This document shows, piece after piece, positions 57,348 to 64,000 of a stretch of DNA of 64,000 nt; within the stretch, counting starts at the first letter, position 1, and each line of letters starts with the position of its first letter. Made by a program: the position numbers and the translations under genes. The DNA is taken from NCBI RefSeq assembly GCF_033723955.1, contig NZ_CP137555.1:620001-684000 (forward strand). Reading direction: 5' to 3'. This DNA comes from Microbulbifer pacificus. GTDB taxonomy: Bacteria > Pseudomonadota > Gammaproteobacteria > Pseudomonadales > Cellvibrionaceae. A model generated the notes under the pieces. That model searched no databases. It worked only from the letters and a program-made list of their open reading frames with translations, and was not told the DNA's origin.

Positions 57348-57424
57348 GCACTCGTAGCTCAGCTGGATAGAGTACTCGGCTACGAACCGAGCGGTCGGAG
57401 GTTCGAATCCTCCCGAGTGCGCCA
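57348..57424 (+). tRNA. tRNA-Arg (anticodon ACG)
   Basis: 77 bases with encoded CCA. Acceptor GCACTCG pairs with CGAGTGC; the anticodon loop CTACGAA gives ACG (inosine at 34 after TadA); T-loop GGTTCGAATCC. It marks the left border of the integron cassette array. Confidence 0.97.
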
Positions 57425-57463: not shown

Positions 57464-57571
57464 TTCCCCTGCCTATGCACCTTCTGCCCTAATATCCCGC
57501 CAAGAACGCAACAAGGCCAGGCACTCAACGCAACCCGAACCCAATGACCAGCACAATACTCCTTACCCATC

Positions 57572-57632
57572 AGTGAACGTGTCTGAGTGTGCTGAGTGGC
57601 GACACGAAGAAATTAGGCTGCGCGCAATTATG
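57572..57632 (-). repeat. Candidate degenerate terminal attC site
   Basis: About 60 bases between AGTGAAC and ATTATGG, with CGTGTC ... GACACG able to pair inside. It would be the last attC of the array, attached to the RcsF-like cassette, but both core triplets are altered compared with the clear sites. Below 57572 there is no sign of further cassettes. Confidence 0.3.
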
Positions 57633-58002
57633 GCCTGCTCTGCCGCGGCGGCACTGCATACGCGACACCCCGACACTCCATGTATTCATGGCACATGTCA
57701 TAGGCAGTTTTACCACACGCCTCAAGTACTACGCCGTTACCACCCAAGCTATGGGTTCTAACCTTTAGATCGCTTACCAAGGCCGCTTTACTTGGCTTTG
57801 GCTGATCTAAACGCTCCTGGCAGTAAGAAGCCTCAACAAATCCCAGAGAAGTCGCGTCGTACTTTGAGATCTCTGCCAGCGAATACTCTTCAACGATTAC
57901 CGTTTTTACTTTATTTGTTGCGTACGGTCCCAGATTTGTATTAAAGGTCATACCATTGCATGCGGATATCAGGACAGCAAAAATTATTACAAATATCTTC
58001 AT
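57628..58002 (-). CDS. RcsF-like outer-membrane lipoprotein on an integron cassette
   Basis: 124 residues with a lipobox ending LISAC (Cys15). The mature domain has four cysteines, C61, C96, C104 and C110, spaced 35, 8 and 6 apart; E. coli RcsF has C74, C109, C118 and C124, spaced 35, 9 and 6, and forms two disulfides from them. The LGFVEASYCQ ... GGNGVVLEAC ... C-x5-C pattern also matches RcsF in order. RcsF senses envelope stress for the Rcs phosphorelay. No other rcs gene is visible. GGAGGAAA lies before ATG 58002. It is the leftmost cassette. Confidence 0.75.
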   Translation of the reverse strand: MKIFVIIFAVLISACNGMTFNTNLGPYATNKVKTVIVEEYSLAEISKYDATSLGFVEASYCQERLDQPKPSKAALVSDLKVRTHSLGGNGVVLEACGKTAYDMCHEYMECRGVAYAVPPRQSRP

Positions 58003-58013
58003 TGTTGTTTCCT

Positions 58014-58131
58014 CCATTACGCCGCCCCCAAGGACGCCTTACTTTATACCCCTTTTGCGCGAAAATTGAAGCGCAGCAACTGCGCAAAAGGCGCATAACG
58101 TAAGACGTTGACTGAAGCACCATGTTAACCG
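58014..58131 (-). repeat. attC site 1 (about 118 bp)
   Basis: + strand begins CATTACGCC and ends GTTAACC. It contains the inner paired segments around TTTTGCGCGAAAAT and GCGCAAAAGGCG. The left core has a T for A in the TAAC triplet (TTAC), so it may be poorly active. It is the attC of the GNAT cassette. Confidence 0.7.
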
Positions 58132-58541
58132 CTGATGCTCCTATCGCGATCCAGCACCCAACAACGCTCGTTATTTTGAAAACCTAAATGTTCATAGTAA
58201 GAATTTGCTGCGGGAGCCGCGATCAAGATTAGTTTACATTTTGGACCAAGCTGCTCTTGCGTAAGGACTTGTAAATTTCGCCCTACTCCCATTCCTTGAT
58301 AGCGTTTATCTACCGCCAAATCAGAAAGATAACATGCATAATGAAAATCTGTGACGCTCCGCGCAATACCCACAAGGCGATCTCCATCCCAGGCACTTAC
58401 CGTGAGATTGCTATTTTTTAGCATACCTTGAAGACACTCTCTGTCCTCTACCGGCCTACGCTCGGCTAAAGTTGAGCTTTCCAGCAAGTTCAGGAACTGC
58501 TCGACTGATACTTCTTTATCAATTCTATATTCGATGTTCAT
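58125..58541 (-). CDS. GNAT-family N-acetyltransferase on an integron cassette
   Basis: 138 residues. The acetyl-CoA loop is RYQGMGVGRNLQVL at about residues 80-93, preceded by the conserved beta-4 strand YACYLSDLAVD and followed by ANSYYEHLGF. The substrate is unknown; GNAT enzymes are among the commonest integron cargo. The stop lies inside the attC to its left, which is typical for cassettes, since the open frame fills nearly the whole cassette. Confidence 0.88.
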   Translation of the reverse strand: MNIEYRIDKEVSVEQFLNLLESSTLAERRPVEDRECLQGMLKNSNLTVSAWDGDRLVGIARSVTDFHYACYLSDLAVDKRYQGMGVGRNLQVLTQEQLGPKCKLILIAAPAANSYYEHLGFQNNERCWVLDRDRSISG

Positions 58542-58552
58542 CGTTACCAGAG

Positions 58553-58696
58553 CCGTTAACGTCCACAGCGGGATGGCTTATCTTACGTGCTTTTTGCGCG
58601 AAAATGGGACCGAAGCGAGCACGCGACATGCACACAAGTTAGGTTGCCCCACGGAAGGCCGCAAGCCTGGAACAAATTACCCGACCTTGCTATGCA
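58553..58696 (-). repeat. attC site 2 (about 144 bp)
   Basis: + strand begins CCGTTAACGTCCACAG and ends GCTATGC (a C replaces the second base of the usual GTTAKGC). Long-type attC: an inner TTTTGCGCGAAAATGGGA hairpin half followed by a 60-base block like the short attC sites. Belongs to the cassette of the gene at 58716-58937. Confidence 0.78.
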
Positions 58697-58715
58697 TTGC
58701 CCGGAGATACACGTT

Positions 58716-58937
58716 CTATTGCCCAGGAAGGTCATTGCACAACTTACATGCGACCCGCCTTTTGTAGTTACGCACACGTACAATCAAGAAGATGCATGAG
58801 CTGATCAAGGCCCAAAATACACCGAACTTTAACGCGTAAACTAGATCCCTTCCTTTTAGATACTGTACACCGGAAAATAGTGCGAAAAGCGCCAGCACCA
58901 TCACGACAGTTTGAAAACTCCATTTTCTAATTGGCAT
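58716..58937 (-). CDS. Small membrane protein on an integron cassette
   Basis: 73 residues with two hydrophobic helices at about 9-27 and 37-55, ending with a basic and Cys-containing tail. No family is recognised. A GGA lies eight bases before the ATG. Its cassette is bounded by attC sites 2 and 3. Small membrane proteins of unknown role are frequent in such arrays. Confidence 0.65.
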   Translation of the reverse strand: MPIRKWSFQTVVMVLALFALFSGVQYLKGRDLVYALKFGVFWALISSCIFLIVRVRNYKRRVACKLCNDLPGQ

Positions 58938-58966
58938 ATCGAAATTCCACTAGTGTTGATTACGAT

Positions 58967-59025
58967 GCTTAACGCGCCCCACGGAGGCCCAACGGGTCGG
59001 AGTATACTGCCTGTGATTGTTAGGC
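58967..59025 (-). repeat. attC site 3 (59 bp, short type)
   Basis: + strand begins GCTTAACGCGCCCC and ends GATTGTTAGGC. Perfect core triplets on both sides. Its 60-base type is almost the same as site 11 and as the right half of site 6. It belongs to the cassette of the MBOAT-like gene. Confidence 0.9.
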
Positions 59026-59469
59026 ATACTTACCCTCTACGAAGCATGTTACCAACAGTGTACTACCGATAAAAAGTATATTTATTGCTGCACGGACAAT
59101 CCACGGATATGAGCGATAAGAAATAGCAAAATACTTTGATAGAACAACTGCAACACCCATAAGGGAAAACCATGGTGTAAAAAATATAATTACTTTCCAT
59201 TTAACGAGAGAAACCGCTAAATCATGGAGCGCGCCACTAACAAGAAAGGTAAAAACGACCGCCAGCCAACTCGGCATAAATAAACCGAGCGGCTTCATGA
59301 TGTTGCGCGACAAATAGTAGCCCCATATTGGGTTCCAATAATGCCAAAAGACCGGGAATGAACCGGCACCCAAAGAGCGAGATAGCATATTTCTCATGGA
59401 ATGGTTTGCGCCCAGCGAAACACCGTTTCGCCTCCTAACGTACTGCGATAATGAAACTGTATTTTGCAT
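59020..59469 (-). CDS. MBOAT-like membrane acyltransferase, short form, on an integron cassette
   Basis: 149 residues, four hydrophobic helices. FWHYWNP (residues 41-47) followed, after about 30 residues, by SGALHDL with His82 resembles the MBOAT core, in which a tryptophan-rich motif and an invariant His in a membrane segment do O-acyl transfer. Typical MBOAT proteins have 350-500 residues, so this would be a truncated or minimal version; the wax-synthase-like branch is closest. The match is by motif only. Confidence 0.55.
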   Translation of the reverse strand: MQNTVSLSQYVRRRNGVSLGANHSMRNMLSRSLGAGSFPVFWHYWNPIWGYYLSRNIMKPLGLFMPSWLAVVFTFLVSGALHDLAVSLVKWKVIIFFTPWFSLMGVAVVLSKYFAISYRSYPWIVRAAINILFIGSTLLVTCFVEGKYA

Positions 59470-59482
59470 GATATTTCCGGAT

Positions 59483-59569
59483 GCCTAACGCTCGGTTTAG
59501 GGGCAGCTGGAGCGTAGTGTAAGCCGTTCCAGCCGCGTATTCCGCGGCGATTACAGCCGCTTTTTATGT
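59483..59569 (-). repeat. attC site 4 (about 87 bp)
   Basis: + strand begins GCCTAACGCTCGGTTTAGG; the right end TTTTATGTG has lost the G of the GTTA core. Internally almost identical to site 12 (about 87 bp), including the GCTGGAGCGTAG and CCAGCCGCGTATT arms. It belongs to the cassette of the gene at 59578-60024. Confidence 0.85.
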
Positions 59570-59577
59570 GAGCGAGG

Positions 59578-60024
59578 TCATCGCTTTAAATCGTGTGGAT
59601 CAAACCCAGTACCAAGCCGCTCACATAGCAGCCTAACCTTTGATTCATCCGCGAAACCTGCACGGTAGCATCTTAAAATAAATGCATACGCAGTATCACT
59701 TAGCTCTTTATGCATTTTTTTCAAATCAGAGCTAGGAACTCTTACCGGCGGGATTGGCACGCCATCTGAAAACTCACACCTTCCCATACAGATCGGGCAG
59801 TACTCATGAACTACCGTTCCATGTTCTCTTACCCAGGTTTTTTGAGCATCTCGCATACTCTCAAAACGATGGTGATATTCATTAAGAGCCGATAGTGCCG
59901 ATTCGATTTCACCTAGCCAGAACTCCAAATTGGCAAATTGTCCCGAAAGGTGGTGAACATATGACGTAGTAAAGCGCCTTATTTGCTCATTTATCAGCCC
60001 CGCTTTTTGAAGCGTATAAACCAT
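59578..60024 (-). CDS. Unknown cassette protein with a CxxC-x3-C motif
   Basis: 148 residues, helical at the N-terminus (LQKAGLINEQIRRFTTSYVHH), with EYCPICMGRCEFSDG at about 73-87, which resembles a zinc ribbon or knuckle, and a helical C-terminus. No family recognised and no signal peptide. Cassette bounded by attC sites 4 and 5; the TGA stop is just outside attC 4. Confidence 0.65.
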   Translation of the reverse strand: MVYTLQKAGLINEQIRRFTTSYVHHLSGQFANLEFWLGEIESALSALNEYHHRFESMRDAQKTWVREHGTVVHEYCPICMGRCEFSDGVPIPPVRVPSSDLKKMHKELSDTAYAFILRCYRAGFADESKVRLLCERLGTGFDPHDLKR

Positions 60025-60067
60025 AGTTCAACCCTCCAGCTTAAGCCTCCTGGCTCACAGGTAGCCC

Positions 60068-60139
60068 ACATAACGCTCGTAGCACGAGCAAATTTGTAGC
60101 GCAGCGGAAACTTTGTCGACGTGCTTACGTTTGTTATAT
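60068..60139 (-). repeat. attC site 5 (72 bp)
   Basis: + strand begins ACATAACGCTCG and ends GTTATAT. Left and right halves pair through CTCGTAGCACGAG and nearby segments. Belongs to the gene at 60134-60508. Confidence 0.85.
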
Positions 60140-60508
60140 TGCCGACGTATCAGGTTCACTCTGAACCCACCAAGACACGTCCATTCCTCTAAACCCTTCC
60201 GGAAAACCACATTGGTCATGGCTATTGATGTAAGGAAAACATTCTAGGGTAATTTCAGAATCTAAAAAAATTAACAAATACCCAGTTTCCAAACTCCCCG
60301 CAGATGCGCAAACCCAGGGAGTATCAATAATTGCATGTTCCTTCGGGAAAATCTCATCCGCAACAGTTAGATAATAGCCCCATCCAGTATATTCATACTG
60401 AGCATAATCTAGACATTGAGAAAGCTTCGCCCTTTGTTCACCAGACAGGTGAGCTTGAGCTAAAAATCGAATGATTTGCTGTTCGAAACTCTTGAGCTTA
60501 ACTTTCAT
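60134..60508 (-). CDS. Unknown cassette protein, acidic, 124 residues
   Basis: 124 residues from ATG 60508; a longer open frame runs into attC 6 and cannot be the real start. It begins MKVKLKSFEQQIIRFLAQAH, has mixed helix and strand (TGWGYYLTVADEIFPKEHAI, TGYLLIFLDSEITLECFPY) and no membrane segment. No family is recognised; the look is that of immunity-like or small stress proteins, which is only an impression. Confidence 0.6.
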   Translation of the reverse strand: MKVKLKSFEQQIIRFLAQAHLSGEQRAKLSQCLDYAQYEYTGWGYYLTVADEIFPKEHAIIDTPWVCASAGSLETGYLLIFLDSEITLECFPYINSHDQCGFPEGFRGMDVSWWVQSEPDTSAI

Positions 60509-60511
60509 GCA

Positions 60512-60655
60512 ATATAACGCCCACAGCAAGGGCAACTTACCTTATTCATGTTTTGAGCAAAAATGGGAGCGAAGCGACCGCACAAAACGTGCATAAGGTA
60601 AGCCGTCCCGCAGAGGCTCAAAGGGCCGGAGCTTCACTGCCTGTGATTGTTAAGC
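60512..60655 (-). repeat. attC site 6 (144 bp, long type)
   Basis: + strand begins ATATAACGCCCACAG and ends GTTAAGC. It has the long-type inner hairpin (TTTTGAGCAAAAATGGGAGC) and a right half that matches the 60-base type of sites 3 and 11. Belongs to the gene at 60650-61024. Confidence 0.88.
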
Positions 60656-61024
60656 ACTTGGCACTGGGCATGAAGGTTCTTTACCTTCCAGCGGTGACAA
60701 AAACTTAGCCAATTCCCCTGAGCATATTAAGTAGAAATTTGGATCAGAGTCAGCATCTTTCGCTTGCACCGCTGAATGAATGACTTTGCCATTAGAATAC
60801 AGAGTTGACTCAAGATTCTTAGAATTCTTGGGATTTACTATAACGGAGAGACGAAGCTCGTCCGTGAGCACAAGTTCTTGGGAGACATAAGAGTCTATAT
60901 CTATCAGAAACTCTTGGATTGAATTCTGATCAATTACAACTTTTAGCTTAAACGGTGCTCTCTCGTTTGCTGATGCTAAACCAGAAAGGAGCATGAAAAG
61001 TAACGATGCAGCTATGGTTTTCAT
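60650..61024 (-). CDS. Secreted protein of unknown function on an integron cassette
   Basis: 124 residues with a clean signal peptide (residues 1-19, ending ASA). The mature part starts NERAPFKLKVVIDQ, looks like a small beta-sandwich, and ends with one Cys pair (C101 and C118 region). No family is recognised. Confidence 0.6.
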   Translation of the reverse strand: MKTIAASLLFMLLSGLASANERAPFKLKVVIDQNSIQEFLIDIDSYVSQELVLTDELRLSVIVNPKNSKNLESTLYSNGKVIHSAVQAKDADSDPNFYLICSGELAKFLSPLEGKEPSCPVPSA

Positions 61025-61051
61025 TTTCTATTCCCTGATTGTGATTTCTGT

Positions 61052-61144
61052 GCTTAACGCCTTGCACACGGGCCGACTGAAGCGCAGCGTAAGGAGGTCC
61101 GGGCCGCCGCGCAGTGGCGGCTGAAGTGCTGCAAATTGTTATGC
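61052..61144 (-). repeat. attC site 7 (93 bp)
   Basis: + strand begins GCTTAACGCCTTGC and ends GTTATGC. The arms GGCCGACTGAAGCGCAGCG and GCGGCTGAAGTGCTGC pair imperfectly. Belongs to the gene at 61158-61556. Confidence 0.87.
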
Positions 61145-61157
61145 ATTTTACCTAAAT

Positions 61158-61556
61158 TCATTTTAGCCGGATTAGCTCTTTGGCATTTATCTCTCTATAT
61201 TCACCATAGACGTCACAATTAATAGTTTTCGAAGATTTTAATTCACACATAATTGTCACTTCACCTTGGTCTCTACCATTATCGCAAAATCCGCCAGTGC
61301 CACTTAAAAGAATAATCTCTTCACTTTTGTATTCTATATATGCCGGCTGGTAACACCGAGTAGGGTCCGACTCGATCGCTTTATTTGAATAATAAGTAGA
61401 AAGTGAACCTACTTTATGATTTACGCAAAGCGTAACTATATTTTCATATTCTCCAATTTCTGCTGTCCAACACCCCACAGCGTACTTATCTTCACCAGAA
61501 TGGGCCAACAACGGAATTAACAGACATACGACAAATACGGAGAATCTATATTTCAT
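61158..61556 (-). CDS. Secreted Cys-rich protein of unknown function on an integron cassette
   Basis: 132 residues. Signal peptide at 1-20 (ending AHSG). The mature protein has six cysteines (29, 44, 68, 91, 104, 114), enough for three disulfides, which suggests a rigid periplasmic or extracellular domain. No family is recognised. Confidence 0.65.
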   Translation of the reverse strand: MKYRFSVFVVCLLIPLLAHSGEDKYAVGCWTAEIGEYENIVTLCVNHKVGSLSTYYSNKAIESDPTRCYQPAYIEYKSEEIILLSGTGGFCDNGRDQGEVTIMCELKSSKTINCDVYGEYREINAKELIRLK

Positions 61557-61574
61557 ACTGGTATCCTATGACAT

Positions 61575-61655
61575 GCATAACGTTCGCCGCACAGGCGAGC
61601 AACTTGTTGCGAGTCCAGCGCACGTAGTGCGCGATTGTGCCGGTGCTTGTTAGGC
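61575..61655 (-). repeat. attC site 8 (81 bp)
   Basis: + strand begins GCATAACGTTCGCCGC and ends GTTAGGC. Good cores, internal pairing through GCGCACGTAGTGCGC. Belongs to the gene at 61660-62322. Confidence 0.9.
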
Positions 61656-61659
61656 TGGC

Positions 61660-62322
61660 TTACCCCCAAAATTTCCACCATGGCCTTGGGGTAACTTCTT
61701 CTACGTCGACAATATTGATACTTTTACAAACCTGATTCATTTTAGAGCGGACTTTACTTAAAGGATGCTCTGGGAATTGGCTATCATATTCCTCAGAGTC
61801 TGCATTATTCCTCAGGCTTGGCCCTTTATATTCAGGAAAATAAGGATCGCATGCCCAACCAGATGGAATTCCATCGTCATTGAGAACATCATCTCCACTT
61901 TCAGATAAATATTTATCAAAAACTATGGCATCCCTAAGGCCAGTCATTCCATCTTCTCTGGAGTAAAGCGACAATACAAATGATCGATCCATAAGCGGCA
62001 TTGAAAGTGATGCAATATATTGCGCTGATTCACCAGAAGCGACTATTTTCCCAATCGCTCTCGCGGATGGGTAACCAGAAATAATGACTGAATCACATTC
62101 GACCACGCCCACACCCTGCGCGGCCAGATTAGCTCTAAAATACTCTCTCATAGCATTTTCATCAGAGAGCAAGTCGCTTAGTTCTTTATCTGGGCCAATA
62201 CATTGCAGTCGCATGAGAACGCCATTTCCATCGTGCCAATTCTTTACATTTTCTCCTGAACTCTTTTCGTCAAAGATCCACTCCTTATCAGAAAATTTGA
62301 AATATTTTGGCATTTTTACCAT
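61660..62322 (-). CDS. Unknown cassette protein, 220 residues
   Basis: 220 residues from ATG 62322, the longest cassette gene here. No signal peptide, mixed alpha/beta, acidic, and with a conserved-looking IGKIVASGESAQYIASLSMPLMDRSFVLSL core in the middle and a Trp-rich end (PRPWWKFWG). No family recognised. Its cassette is bounded by attC sites 8 and 9. Confidence 0.65.
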   Translation of the reverse strand: MVKMPKYFKFSDKEWIFDEKSSGENVKNWHDGNGVLMRLQCIGPDKELSDLLSDENAMREYFRANLAAQGVGVVECDSVIISGYPSARAIGKIVASGESAQYIASLSMPLMDRSFVLSLYSREDGMTGLRDAIVFDKYLSESGDDVLNDDGIPSGWACDPYFPEYKGPSLRNNADSEEYDSQFPEHPLSKVRSKMNQVCKSINIVDVEEVTPRPWWKFWG

Positions 62323-62332
62323 CTCCTTGGCT

Positions 62333-62476
62333 GCCTAACGCCGCCGACAGGGGCAGCTTACCTTGTGCGCGTTTTGCGCGAAAATGGGAGCGCAGCGACC
62401 CGCGCAAAATGTGCACAAAGTAAGCTGTCCCGCGGAGGGCCCCAGGCCCGGAGCAAATTGCCCGGCCTTGTTATGC
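62333..62476 (-). repeat. attC site 9 (144 bp, long type)
   Basis: + strand begins GCCTAACGCCGCCGAC and ends GTTATGC. Long-type hairpin (GTTTTGCGCGAAAATGGGAG) and the same right-half layout as site 2, ending in TTGTTATGC. Belongs to the ABM-domain gene. Confidence 0.9.
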
Positions 62477-62527
62477 CTAGGGGCTATGGGATAACTACAA
62501 TCCACCACATACGCCTCAGATCTGTAC

Positions 62528-62809
62528 TTAGCCCTGCTCAAAAATTTGGTAATGACGCTCTACATTTTTTGTGACTTTACCCCAGTGCGAACTTTTGACT
62601 CGCTGCTGATGGTAAGCAAATGCTTCTTTGTTAGAAAATTCTTCGTATACGTTGAATCGACAAATATTATTTTTGTCTTGACTAACGTTGAATTTCTCGC
62701 AGCCAAATTCTTCTCTAGTGAGCTGAATATGACTAATCAATTCCTTTTTGACGATCTCAAGATCTGACTCAGGAACGACGATATACCCTTCCAATATTAC
62801 CTTGTTCAA
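62528..62809 (-). CDS. ABM-domain (putative quinol monooxygenase-like) protein on an integron cassette
   Basis: 93 residues from a TTG at 62809, chosen because the open frame further upstream runs through attC 10 and because AAGGA lies seven bases before this TTG. The pattern ILEGYIVVPESDLEIVKKEL, FNVYEEFSNKEAFAYHQQRV and SSHWGKVTKNVERHYQI is that of the antibiotic-biosynthesis-monooxygenase fold (a small dimeric barrel). The substrate is unknown. Confidence 0.8.
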   Translation of the reverse strand: MNKVILEGYIVVPESDLEIVKKELISHIQLTREEFGCEKFNVSQDKNNICRFNVYEEFSNKEAFAYHQQRVKSSHWGKVTKNVERHYQIFEQG

Positions 62810-62827
62810 TATTCGATCCTTGATGAC

Positions 62828-62946
62828 GCATAACGCCGCGCTCAGGGGCCGCTTGCTTTGGGCGCATTTTGCGCAAAAATGGGAGTGGAGCGACCTGCGC
62901 AAAAGGTGCATAAAGTAAGCCGTCGCTTTGCAGCGCCTTGTTAGGC
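62828..62946 (-). repeat. attC site 10 (119 bp)
   Basis: + strand begins GCATAACGCCGCGC and ends GTTAGGC. It has the long-type inner hairpin (CATTTTGCGCAAAAATGGGAG) but a shorter right half than sites 2, 6 and 9. Belongs to the VOC gene. Confidence 0.9.
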
Positions 62947-63329
62947 TGCTGGCTGTACCAAATTTATAAGATTGCCACAGCTATCTTCGAAAAGAACATT
63001 TGTAATAGGACCCATGTTCTTTGGTTCGCCGCGAAATTGCACCCCGAGCGCCTTAAGTCGAGTGTACTCAGCGGAAATGTCACTTGAGATAAACGCGGTA
63101 GCCGGAATTCCGGCTTCAAAAAGCGCCTTCTGATATGTAATCGCCGGTGGAAATGCAGCCGGTTCAAGAACAAGCTCAACTCCGGCAGCGCTTCCGGCGA
63201 AATTACCGTAAGCCAACGAAATTCACCAATCGGAATGTCATTCTTTACTTCAAAACCGAGCACTTTCGTATAGAAATTCAAAGCCCGATTTTGATCTTCT
63301 ACTGTAATGCTTGCCAACGTAATTTGCAT
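62941..63329 (-). pseudogene. VOC-family (glyoxalase/bleomycin resistance-like) gene with a one-base deletion, on an integron cassette
   Basis: The ATG at 63329 gives ITLASITVEDQNRALNFYTK and the first VOC module, up to WLTVISPE. A second frame ending at 62941 gives the rest of the module (GVELVLEP to GNLINLVQP), including the Glu and Asp positions of the VOC metal site. One missing base at about 63181-63185 (in CCGGAG, read on the minus strand) breaks the frame. With it restored, an intact protein of about 129 residues is obtained. Either a recent pseudogene or a sequencing artefact. Confidence 0.85.
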
Positions 63330-63353
63330 AAATATACCTGGATCAATTTTTAA

Positions 63354-63413
63354 GCCTAACGCCGTCCCGCGGAGGCCCGAAGGGCCGTAGCAAACTGCCT
63401 GCGATTGTTAGAG
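63354..63413 (-). repeat. attC site 11 (60 bp, short type)
   Basis: + strand begins GCCTAACGCCGTCC and ends GTTAGAG. Same 60-base type as site 3 and the right half of site 6. Belongs to the Excalibur-domain gene. Confidence 0.88.
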
Positions 63414-63422
63414 TTTGCTGAC

Positions 63423-63887
63423 TCAGAACCTGGAATCGTTCTCACATGGAACCCCGTCATTATCGCCATCCATTTTTGTATTTGGGCAGTTTCTTATAAA
63501 AAACACCGCCTCTTCTCTGGATGTCATTTGGCTACAATGCTGCCGGCCATCGCATTTGAAATGCGGACTTGAAAGATTGGATGAATAGAAATTTGAATTT
63601 TCAGGCCTTAATACGTTTAAGTTGGAGAAGCTTGAACTTACCGAGCCCGGCAATTCCAAACCGCCATTTGCATACGCCAACCCCAAGATTACAAGAATTC
63701 CCAAAAGTTGGAGCTTGAATGGACCTTTTGCATCTTGCCAATGGACGATTAAATAAATTATGGAAACTGGTGCAATGAGCAGTACTGCAAGCCCCCAGAG
63801 GATGCCTGTTCTAAAGGCCGCTATAAGTAGGCCGATTCCGCCGATAATAAATATCCCAAGGCCTACGTAAAAAATTATCTCTGCCAC
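63423..63887 (-). CDS. Membrane-anchored Excalibur calcium-binding domain protein on an integron cassette
   Basis: 154 residues. Three hydrophobic segments at about 2-24, 28-49 and 58-74, then a Ser/Asn-rich linker and an Excalibur domain at about 111-152 with Cys112, Cys118, Cys134 and Cys148 and the calcium-loop DGDNDGVPCE (140-149). The domain resembles an EF-hand-like loop and is common in secreted or surface proteins; here it is tethered to the membrane. The domain name is firm; the function is not known. Confidence 0.85.
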   Translation of the reverse strand: MAEIIFYVGLGIFIIGGIGLLIAAFRTGILWGLAVLLIAPVSIIYLIVHWQDAKGPFKLQLLGILVILGLAYANGGLELPGSVSSSFSNLNVLRPENSNFYSSNLSSPHFKCDGRQHCSQMTSREEAVFFIRNCPNTKMDGDNDGVPCENDSRF

Positions 63888-63905
63888 TCGATATTCCTTT
63901 GCGTA

Positions 63906-63992
63906 CTCTAACGCTCGGTTTAGGGGCGGCTGGAGCGTAGCGGAAGCCGTCCCAGCCGCGTATTTCGCGGCGATTACAACCGCTTGTTAGGC
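63906..63992 (-). repeat. attC site 12 (87 bp)
   Basis: + strand begins CTCTAACGCTCGGTTT and ends GTTAGGC. Nearly identical to site 4 except that its right core is intact, so site 4 looks like a decayed copy. The gene it belongs to lies beyond the right edge. Confidence 0.9.
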
Positions 63993-64000
63993 ATCTGGCT

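Follow-up and report, generated by a model that had tools for sequence, protein, structure and literature searches.

A chromosomal integron beside groEL in Microbulbifer pacificus and the relation of attC sites, integrases and cassettes across the genus

The DNA analysed here, called the window, is a stretch of 64,000 nucleotides of Microbulbifer pacificus (C1:620,001-684,000 of a single 4,194,096-base contig, and hence chromosomal), and our subject is the integron whose cassette array fills its right-hand end. Twelve small genes, all on the minus strand, lie between positions 57,574 and 64,000, with 13 attC sites (46-143 bp) between them and on either side of them (Table 1). The open reading frames (ORFs), of which one is split, lie between 57,628 and 63,887 and encode 73-220 amino acids; the guanine-plus-cytosine (GC) content is 0.454 over 57,570-64,000 versus 0.594 over 1-57,500. 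The 13th attC site (63,907-63,992) is that of a cassette with its gene beyond the window edge, where the array runs on for 4.75 kb with 10 more genes and nine more attC sites. The whole array thus comprises 22 cassettes and 22 attC sites over about 11.2 kb, from the tRNA-Arg side to the leader of the integrase gene intI. All 22 cassette genes are on the minus strand, and intI is on the plus strand, transcribed away from the array towards groEL. The distal end lies 150 bp from a tRNA-Arg(ACG) gene beside dus, the dihydrouridine synthase gene, and the same tRNA-Arg stands beside dus in all six relatives examined that hold the distal end. An earlier note on this DNA had described twelve minus-strand genes in an AT-richer array that stops close to tRNA-Arg, with intI to the right of position 64,000, and on all of these points it was borne out. 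Its description of separate small genes holds for the twelve except that the VOC/glyoxalase gene at 62,941-63,329 is divided between two reading frames, through real decay or a sequence error.

The integrase gene lies at C1:689,082-690,119 on the plus strand, 5.1 kb past the window edge and beside groEL and groES, and a profile search gave 403 bits to TIGR02249 (integron integrase; cut-off 265). The best solved relative of this integrase and of a second one in the same genome (see below) is IntI4 of Vibrio cholerae (2a3v), to which the former aligns over residues 13-327. The residues R, K, H-x-x-R, H and Y, which we take to be the catalytic set, are kept in both integrase alignments. In named genomes, the closest relatives of the window's integrase are mostly from Microbulbifer. 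The leader of about 300 nt between intI and the first cassette is taken to hold the putative attI, and it carries a AACAGTTTATTC block at the junction with the first cassette. Furthermore, a LexA-like box lies 35 nt upstream of the aligned start of intI; such boxes are present in 60 of 73 intI leaders versus 43 of 6096 background pieces.

The attC sites were examined with a structural scan (AACG, a 2-nt spacer, a 5-bp L stem, a one-base shift and TGTT), whose minimum length and core rules miss short and eroded sites. It returned seven plus-strand sites in the window, all within the array, and one minus-strand site elsewhere; 20 shuffled windows (single-base shuffles within 100-bp blocks) gave a mean of 0.6. 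Strict RYYYAAC/GTTRRRY pairs found very few sites here. Among 46 sites picked by regular expression in both arrays of the genome, 40 have an intact core, and two picks, both in the second array, were mis-set (one a chance pair, the other with its true start at 3,549,032). The 40 intact sites were selected for the R core, which fixes the pairing of the R stem, but not the L stem or the shift. Their L stem is 93-100% paired with three to four pair types; a 2-nt spacer precedes it, and on the 3' arm it is followed by a one-base shift, which marks the predicted extrahelical base. In 36 of the 40, the better fold is that of the plus (bottom) strand and not that of the gene strand.

A covariance model (R2) built from eight attC sites of the window's array has a predicted structure with the same stems and spacer. 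With 150 of 321 candidates scored, the counts from its genome search are lower bounds: at least 64 matches, at least 38 on the array strands and at least 26 that hit these hairpins on the other strand. The array-strand matches fall in the window's array (at least 14), in the second integron (at least 21) and elsewhere (at least 3), and four of those 14 lie in the window and outside the training set. Another model (R1), built on 11 window sites of mixed length aligned with MAFFT, had no consensus structure and was not used, being sequence-only.

Four sites, starting at 57,574, 58,018, 58,555 and 59,481, lack a clean TAACG...TGTTA form. They are four of the five most distal sites versus none of the other 17, an arrangement with a chance of 5 in 7315 under random placement of four among 22. 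Because all four eroded sites are among the five most distal, the distal end is probably the oldest end, a reading that the pattern of erosion supports. The earlier note had reached it too, and had described the repeats as TAACG...GTTAGGC-type attC sites to be checked with a covariance model. Their attC architecture and strand asymmetry stood, with at least four further window sites recovered outside the training set, and the clean form failed at the four eroded sites.

In sum, the end of the window very probably belongs to a complete sedentary chromosomal integron with 22 cassettes, of which it holds the attI-distal part. In our model, DNA damage would relieve LexA repression of intI, and IntI would recognise attC sites folded from the plus (bottom) strand, excise cassettes and insert them at attI, with entry on the right and ageing towards the left. 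From the features of the DNA we infer the activity, the SOS control, the exact attI and this direction of ageing.

The same genome has a second integron. Its integrase (C1:3,541,411-3,542,433, a 340-aa ORF with 368 bits to TIGR02249, cut-off 265) is 44% identical to that of the window's integron; a stop inside the match was considered as a disruption and rejected, the stop being terminal and the ORF open. At least 26 attC sites follow up to 3,557 kb (25 by the grammar and one more by the model), and by eye they belong to the same length and sequence classes as those of the window's array. More than one intI per genome was reported for 20% of integron-bearing bacteria in passages of a 2008 survey (PMC2426708).

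Within the genus, intI matches at E <= 1e-60 are present in 43 of 48 genomes, and 28 of these have two or three; the total is 74, some of them fragments. A tree was built from 66 Microbulbifer rows (280 aa or longer) and 15 rows from elsewhere. It contains a clade A of 41 Microbulbifer and 10 outside rows, which includes the window's integrase, and another clade of 25 Microbulbifer rows. In the latter, a supported group B of eight rows holds the second integrase of our genome; C denotes the remaining 17 rows, which the tree does not show as one group, and the tree tool warned of long branches joining at the base of this 25-row clade. The groEL flank is shared by 26 of the 66 rows, with occupants from A in 22 and from C in four, and a site between an M49 peptidase and an ABC transporter gene (provisional label msbA) holds B in four rows. 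Integrases of the same genome are 43-51% identical in seven of nine pairs and 63% in two.

The reading to which we lean, with modest confidence, is that Microbulbifer has at least two platforms with deeply diverged integrases that use a single pool of attC sites common to a host group and exchange cassettes within the cell, with intI and attI as a replaceable module at fixed sites. If this is true, what determines the identity of attC sites would be the host or cassette pool, rather than co-evolution with the resident integrase. Turnover of the integrase was followed in 17 genomes that have a groEL-site integrase and the dus gene. The identities of dus and groL agree (r 0.542, reached in 0/2000 permutations), and the identity of the integrase follows neither dus (r 0.024, 748/2000) nor groL (r 0.005, 912/2000); integrase identity at this site is uncorrelated with host genes. 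In G022, the nearest relative by dus, groL is 99.2%, dus 92% and the groEL-site integrase 68% identical to ours, and in G016 an integrase of 45% identity stands beside a groL of 99.1%. Because groL correlates with fxsA at only r 0.132 in 16 genomes (321/2000 permutations), groL alone was dropped as the host yardstick and dus was adopted.

Co-evolution of IntI and attC has been explicitly proposed, as stated in passages of one paper (PMC8352920). A regression over 28 arrays with at least five sites each (19 genomes, 369 different-genome pairs, up to eight sites per array) gave standardised coefficients for attC similarity of -0.031 for the integrase (reached in 1569/2000 permutations) and 0.455 for the host (0/2000). 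For the leader/attI region the coefficients were 0.700 for the integrase (0/2000) and 0.102 for the host (16/2000). Hence, attC similarity follows host relatedness and the leader/attI follows the integrase, and the attC result argues against a tight IntI-attC link within Microbulbifer.

The turnover at the groEL site might also reflect replacement of the whole locus, that is, of flanks, intI and array together, by interspecies homologous recombination instead of an exchange of the intI-attI module, and we give this explanation nearly an even chance. No cassette covering half a gene is common to this array and the examined array of G022, and because no such cassette is shared with the nearest relative, the integrase could have been replaced along with the array. 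Furthermore, groL itself may recombine, given its low correlation with fxsA. However, dus and groL agree where intI agrees with neither, and attC similarity does not follow the integrase. Since arrays would lose their similarity through cassette turnover alone, these two points do not decide the matter. An ancestral tandem of integrases at groEL with later loss was considered as well; the counter-evidence, that none of the 74 placed intI matches lie side by side there, is weak.

Three further observations were made at the groEL site. The interval from groEL to tRNA-Arg in G024 (C2:2193000-2240000, L194-L196) is about 42 kb of lower-GC DNA with four scattered attC-like matches on both strands, and no integron integrase match was found in it. 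In G042, otherwise counted as a genome without intI, the DNA immediately downstream of groEL gives a partial integrase match (53%, 92 aa; C13 ~109,378-109,653; L203 19379-19654). The groEL-site array of G017 (L126, L200, L201), with 59 array-strand grammar matches in the 43.5 kb examined, is much longer than that of our genome.

Cassettes themselves point toward traffic between platforms. One cassette is common to both arrays of our genome (547 bp, 98.2% identical). In each array, the match starts 3 bp ahead of the cassette's own core and stops 20 bp beyond the core that follows; because the ends fall at the cores, the shared 547 bp is a single cassette unit. Its gene (61158..61556) found one protein (92%) in a large protein search. 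When cassette bodies were compared across the genus with attC masked, bodies of at least 98% identity were common to four of nine same-genome array pairs and to none of 369 different-genome pairs. Ranks below are grammar matches counted from intI in the 15 kb examined. In G004, the cassette at rank 1 of one array reappears at rank 11 of its partner (99.7%, 707 nt), whose own rank-1 cassette has copies at ranks 8 and 6 of the former (99.8 and 100%). In G006, the cassette that opens the second array has a copy at rank 17 of the groEL array (100%, 334 nt); this copy lies beyond an array gap and outside the count of 4/9, in which G006 rests on a 401-nt body. G031 has four identical bodies at scattered ranks. 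All three are single-contig genomes. An attI-proximal copy together with a deep copy in the other array is the pattern expected from insertion at the other integron's attI. Semi-conservative recombination can leave the donor copy of a cassette in place. According to the passages seen of one paper, such recombination is the working model for integrons (PMC11551772). In a literature search over titles and abstract openings, with little subscription coverage, same-genome cassette trading between two chromosomal integrons was not found, and the integron passages retrieved held no mention of Microbulbifer integrons.

That cassettes present in both arrays were captured twice from outside, from the same donor pool, and not traded within the cell seems unlikely to us. 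Cassettes do cross species: bodies of at least 75% identity are common to 64 of the 369 different-genome pairs (31 of 155 with integrases at least 62% identical, 33 of 214 with less), as they are to six of nine same-genome pairs. However, the contrast at 98% between pairs within and between genomes stands against double capture, as does the placement in G004 and G006, where a copy at rank 1 is paired with one deep in the other array (ranks 6, 8, 11 and 17), so that the copies are not recent in both arrays. Returning to trade within the cell, we infer that the two platforms of our genome share a cassette pool. As a side observation, G006 (L145, L148) also has a 1,256-nt segment, 99.8% identical, in the regions upstream of both integrases, whose ends are not those of a cassette unit.

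Several results weigh against a shared pool with in-cell trade, or against the parts on which it is built. Five of the nine same-genome pairs have no cassette in common at 98% or more, one different-genome pair (G027-G032) falls just under that threshold (97.99%), and at 95% or more the counts are 4/9 and 5/369. When the comparison is confined to near hosts (242 pairs), the effect of the host on attC falls to 0.097; because it shrinks, we read the attC pattern as one of broad host groups and not of a fine gradient. Integrase pairs more than 80% identical have an attC similarity of 0.677 versus 0.52-0.585 in the other bands, and same-genome pairs, with a mean of 0.661, do not clearly exceed other pairs (0.582). 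Array pairs are non-independent, the host is represented by one gene, most arrays were taken over about 15 kb, and the attC grammar applied genus-wide was derived from our genome. As for the integron itself, the attI-like motif matches only 26 of 45 A-type leaders, and only three of 13 window sites have a fold z <= -2, single folds lying mostly near their shuffles.

Although the window itself holds no integrase, the orphan cassette cluster (cluster of attC sites lacking an integron-integrase, CALIN) that the earlier note kept as its alternative is excluded for this array because an intact intI lies 5.1 kb beyond the edge, and with a single 4.19-Mb contig, no phage record matching the array and plasmid records that each match over 2% of the query (among the 20 of 32 records listed), the chance that the array is such a cluster or part of a phage or plasmid, the case the note said would refute it, is negligible. 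Plasmids of Spartinivicinus, Shewanella and Acinetobacter match about 130 bp of the Excalibur gene (window 63433-63566) at 72-80%, which reflects the domain and not the cassette.

Elsewhere in our genome (G000), a small low-GC attC cluster (C1:2056858-2057541 and on to ~2062 kb; L233, L236; 93 and 48 bits) lies beside a tRNA-Arg (CCG). No integrase match was found in the stretch examined, and the cluster reads as a CALIN at a second tRNA-Arg. A lone eroded attC (C1:232746-232884, L232, 94.7 bits) amid about 3 kb of low-GC genes would be a second small cluster without intI.

Among the 22 cassette proteins, Pfam matches over the cut-off were to GNAT acetyltransferase, the antibiotic biosynthesis monooxygenase family, VOC/glyoxalase (the split gene) and Excalibur; the remaining proteins had no Pfam match or sub-threshold ones only. 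A defence library gave no match among the 10 of these proteins that were searched. In an Rfam scan of L009, tRNA alone was above the gathering score, and sub-gathering matches over the array with microRNA names were taken for hairpin artefacts.

Table 1. Genes and attC sites at the right-hand end of the window (window positions)
Feature	Position	Strand	Evidence
tRNA-Arg (ACG), distal boundary	57348..57424	+	ARAGORN
attC remnant of last cassette, eroded	57574..57619	-	
Cassette gene, weak RcsF match below cut-off	57628..58017	-	
attC, eroded	58018..58130	-	covariance-model match over inner hairpin w58034-58108
Cassette gene, GNAT acetyltransferase	58125..58541	-	
attC, eroded	58555..58695	-	covariance-model match, 38.9 bits
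Cassette gene, 73 aa, no family above cut-off	58716..58937	-	
attC, 58 bp	58968..59025	-	
Cassette gene, MBOAT-like part below cut-off	59020..59469	-	
attC, eroded	59481..59568	-	
Cassette gene, no family	59578..60024	-	
attC	60069..60139	-	
Cassette gene, no family, start codon uncertain	60134..60535	-	
attC, 143 bp class	60513..60655	-	training site of covariance model
Cassette gene, no family; 72-73% relatives in two other arrays	60650..61024	-	
attC of cassette also present in second integron	61053..61144	-	
Cassette gene, no family; cassette copy (98.2% nt) in second integron	61158..61556	-	
attC, 80 bp class	61576..61655	-	
Cassette gene, no family	61660..62322	-	
attC, 143 bp class	62334..62476	-	training site of covariance model; fold z -5.26
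Cassette gene, antibiotic biosynthesis monooxygenase family, start codon uncertain	62528..62911	-	
attC, 118 bp class	62829..62946	-	
Cassette gene, VOC/glyoxalase, split over two frames	62941..63329	-	
attC, 59 bp	63355..63413	-	
Cassette gene, Excalibur domain	63423..63887	-	
attC of next cassette, gene beyond window edge	63907..63992	-	

Integrons are already known, and the window's integron alone is ordinary; it is the genus-wide pattern that merits the attention of specialists. One genome with two integrase lineages and the same attC types makes IntI-attC co-evolution directly testable, and the arrays of Microbulbifer are natural snapshots of apparent cassette copying between platforms.

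The sedentary chromosomal integrons of Vibrio have, as here, an intI divergent from a one-way array and attC sites that are alike within the array. IntI4 of V. cholerae (2a3v) is the nearest solved relative of the Microbulbifer integrases, and a LexA box at intI is likewise described in passages on V. cholerae (PMC3108266). Unlike some Vibrio arrays, to which the abstract of a further paper ascribes hundreds of cassettes (PMC11023631), the array described here has 22, its intact attC sites fall into several length classes (58-144 bp), and the genome has a second platform with another integrase. The Xanthomonas integrons at ilvD also occupy a conserved chromosomal site, with one in-place substitution of the integrase in X. 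arboricola clade B; in the passages concerned, inheritance there is mostly vertical (PMC12444791), whereas the groEL-site integrase of Microbulbifer is uncorrelated with host genes in 17 genomes. Shewanella resembles Microbulbifer in having several groups of intI, CALINs, lateral transfer and, in some genomes, more than one integrase (PMC9229058), but the passages seen of that study contain neither a comparison of attC with the integrase nor same-genome cassette copies. Finally, the marine Saccharophagus degradans 2-40 has, according to the corresponding passages, a comparable low-GC array with a 140-bp repeat and genes on one strand; it differs in its 40 genes, its GC content of 37.9%, the integrases described at each end and its membership of another genus (PMC2386152).

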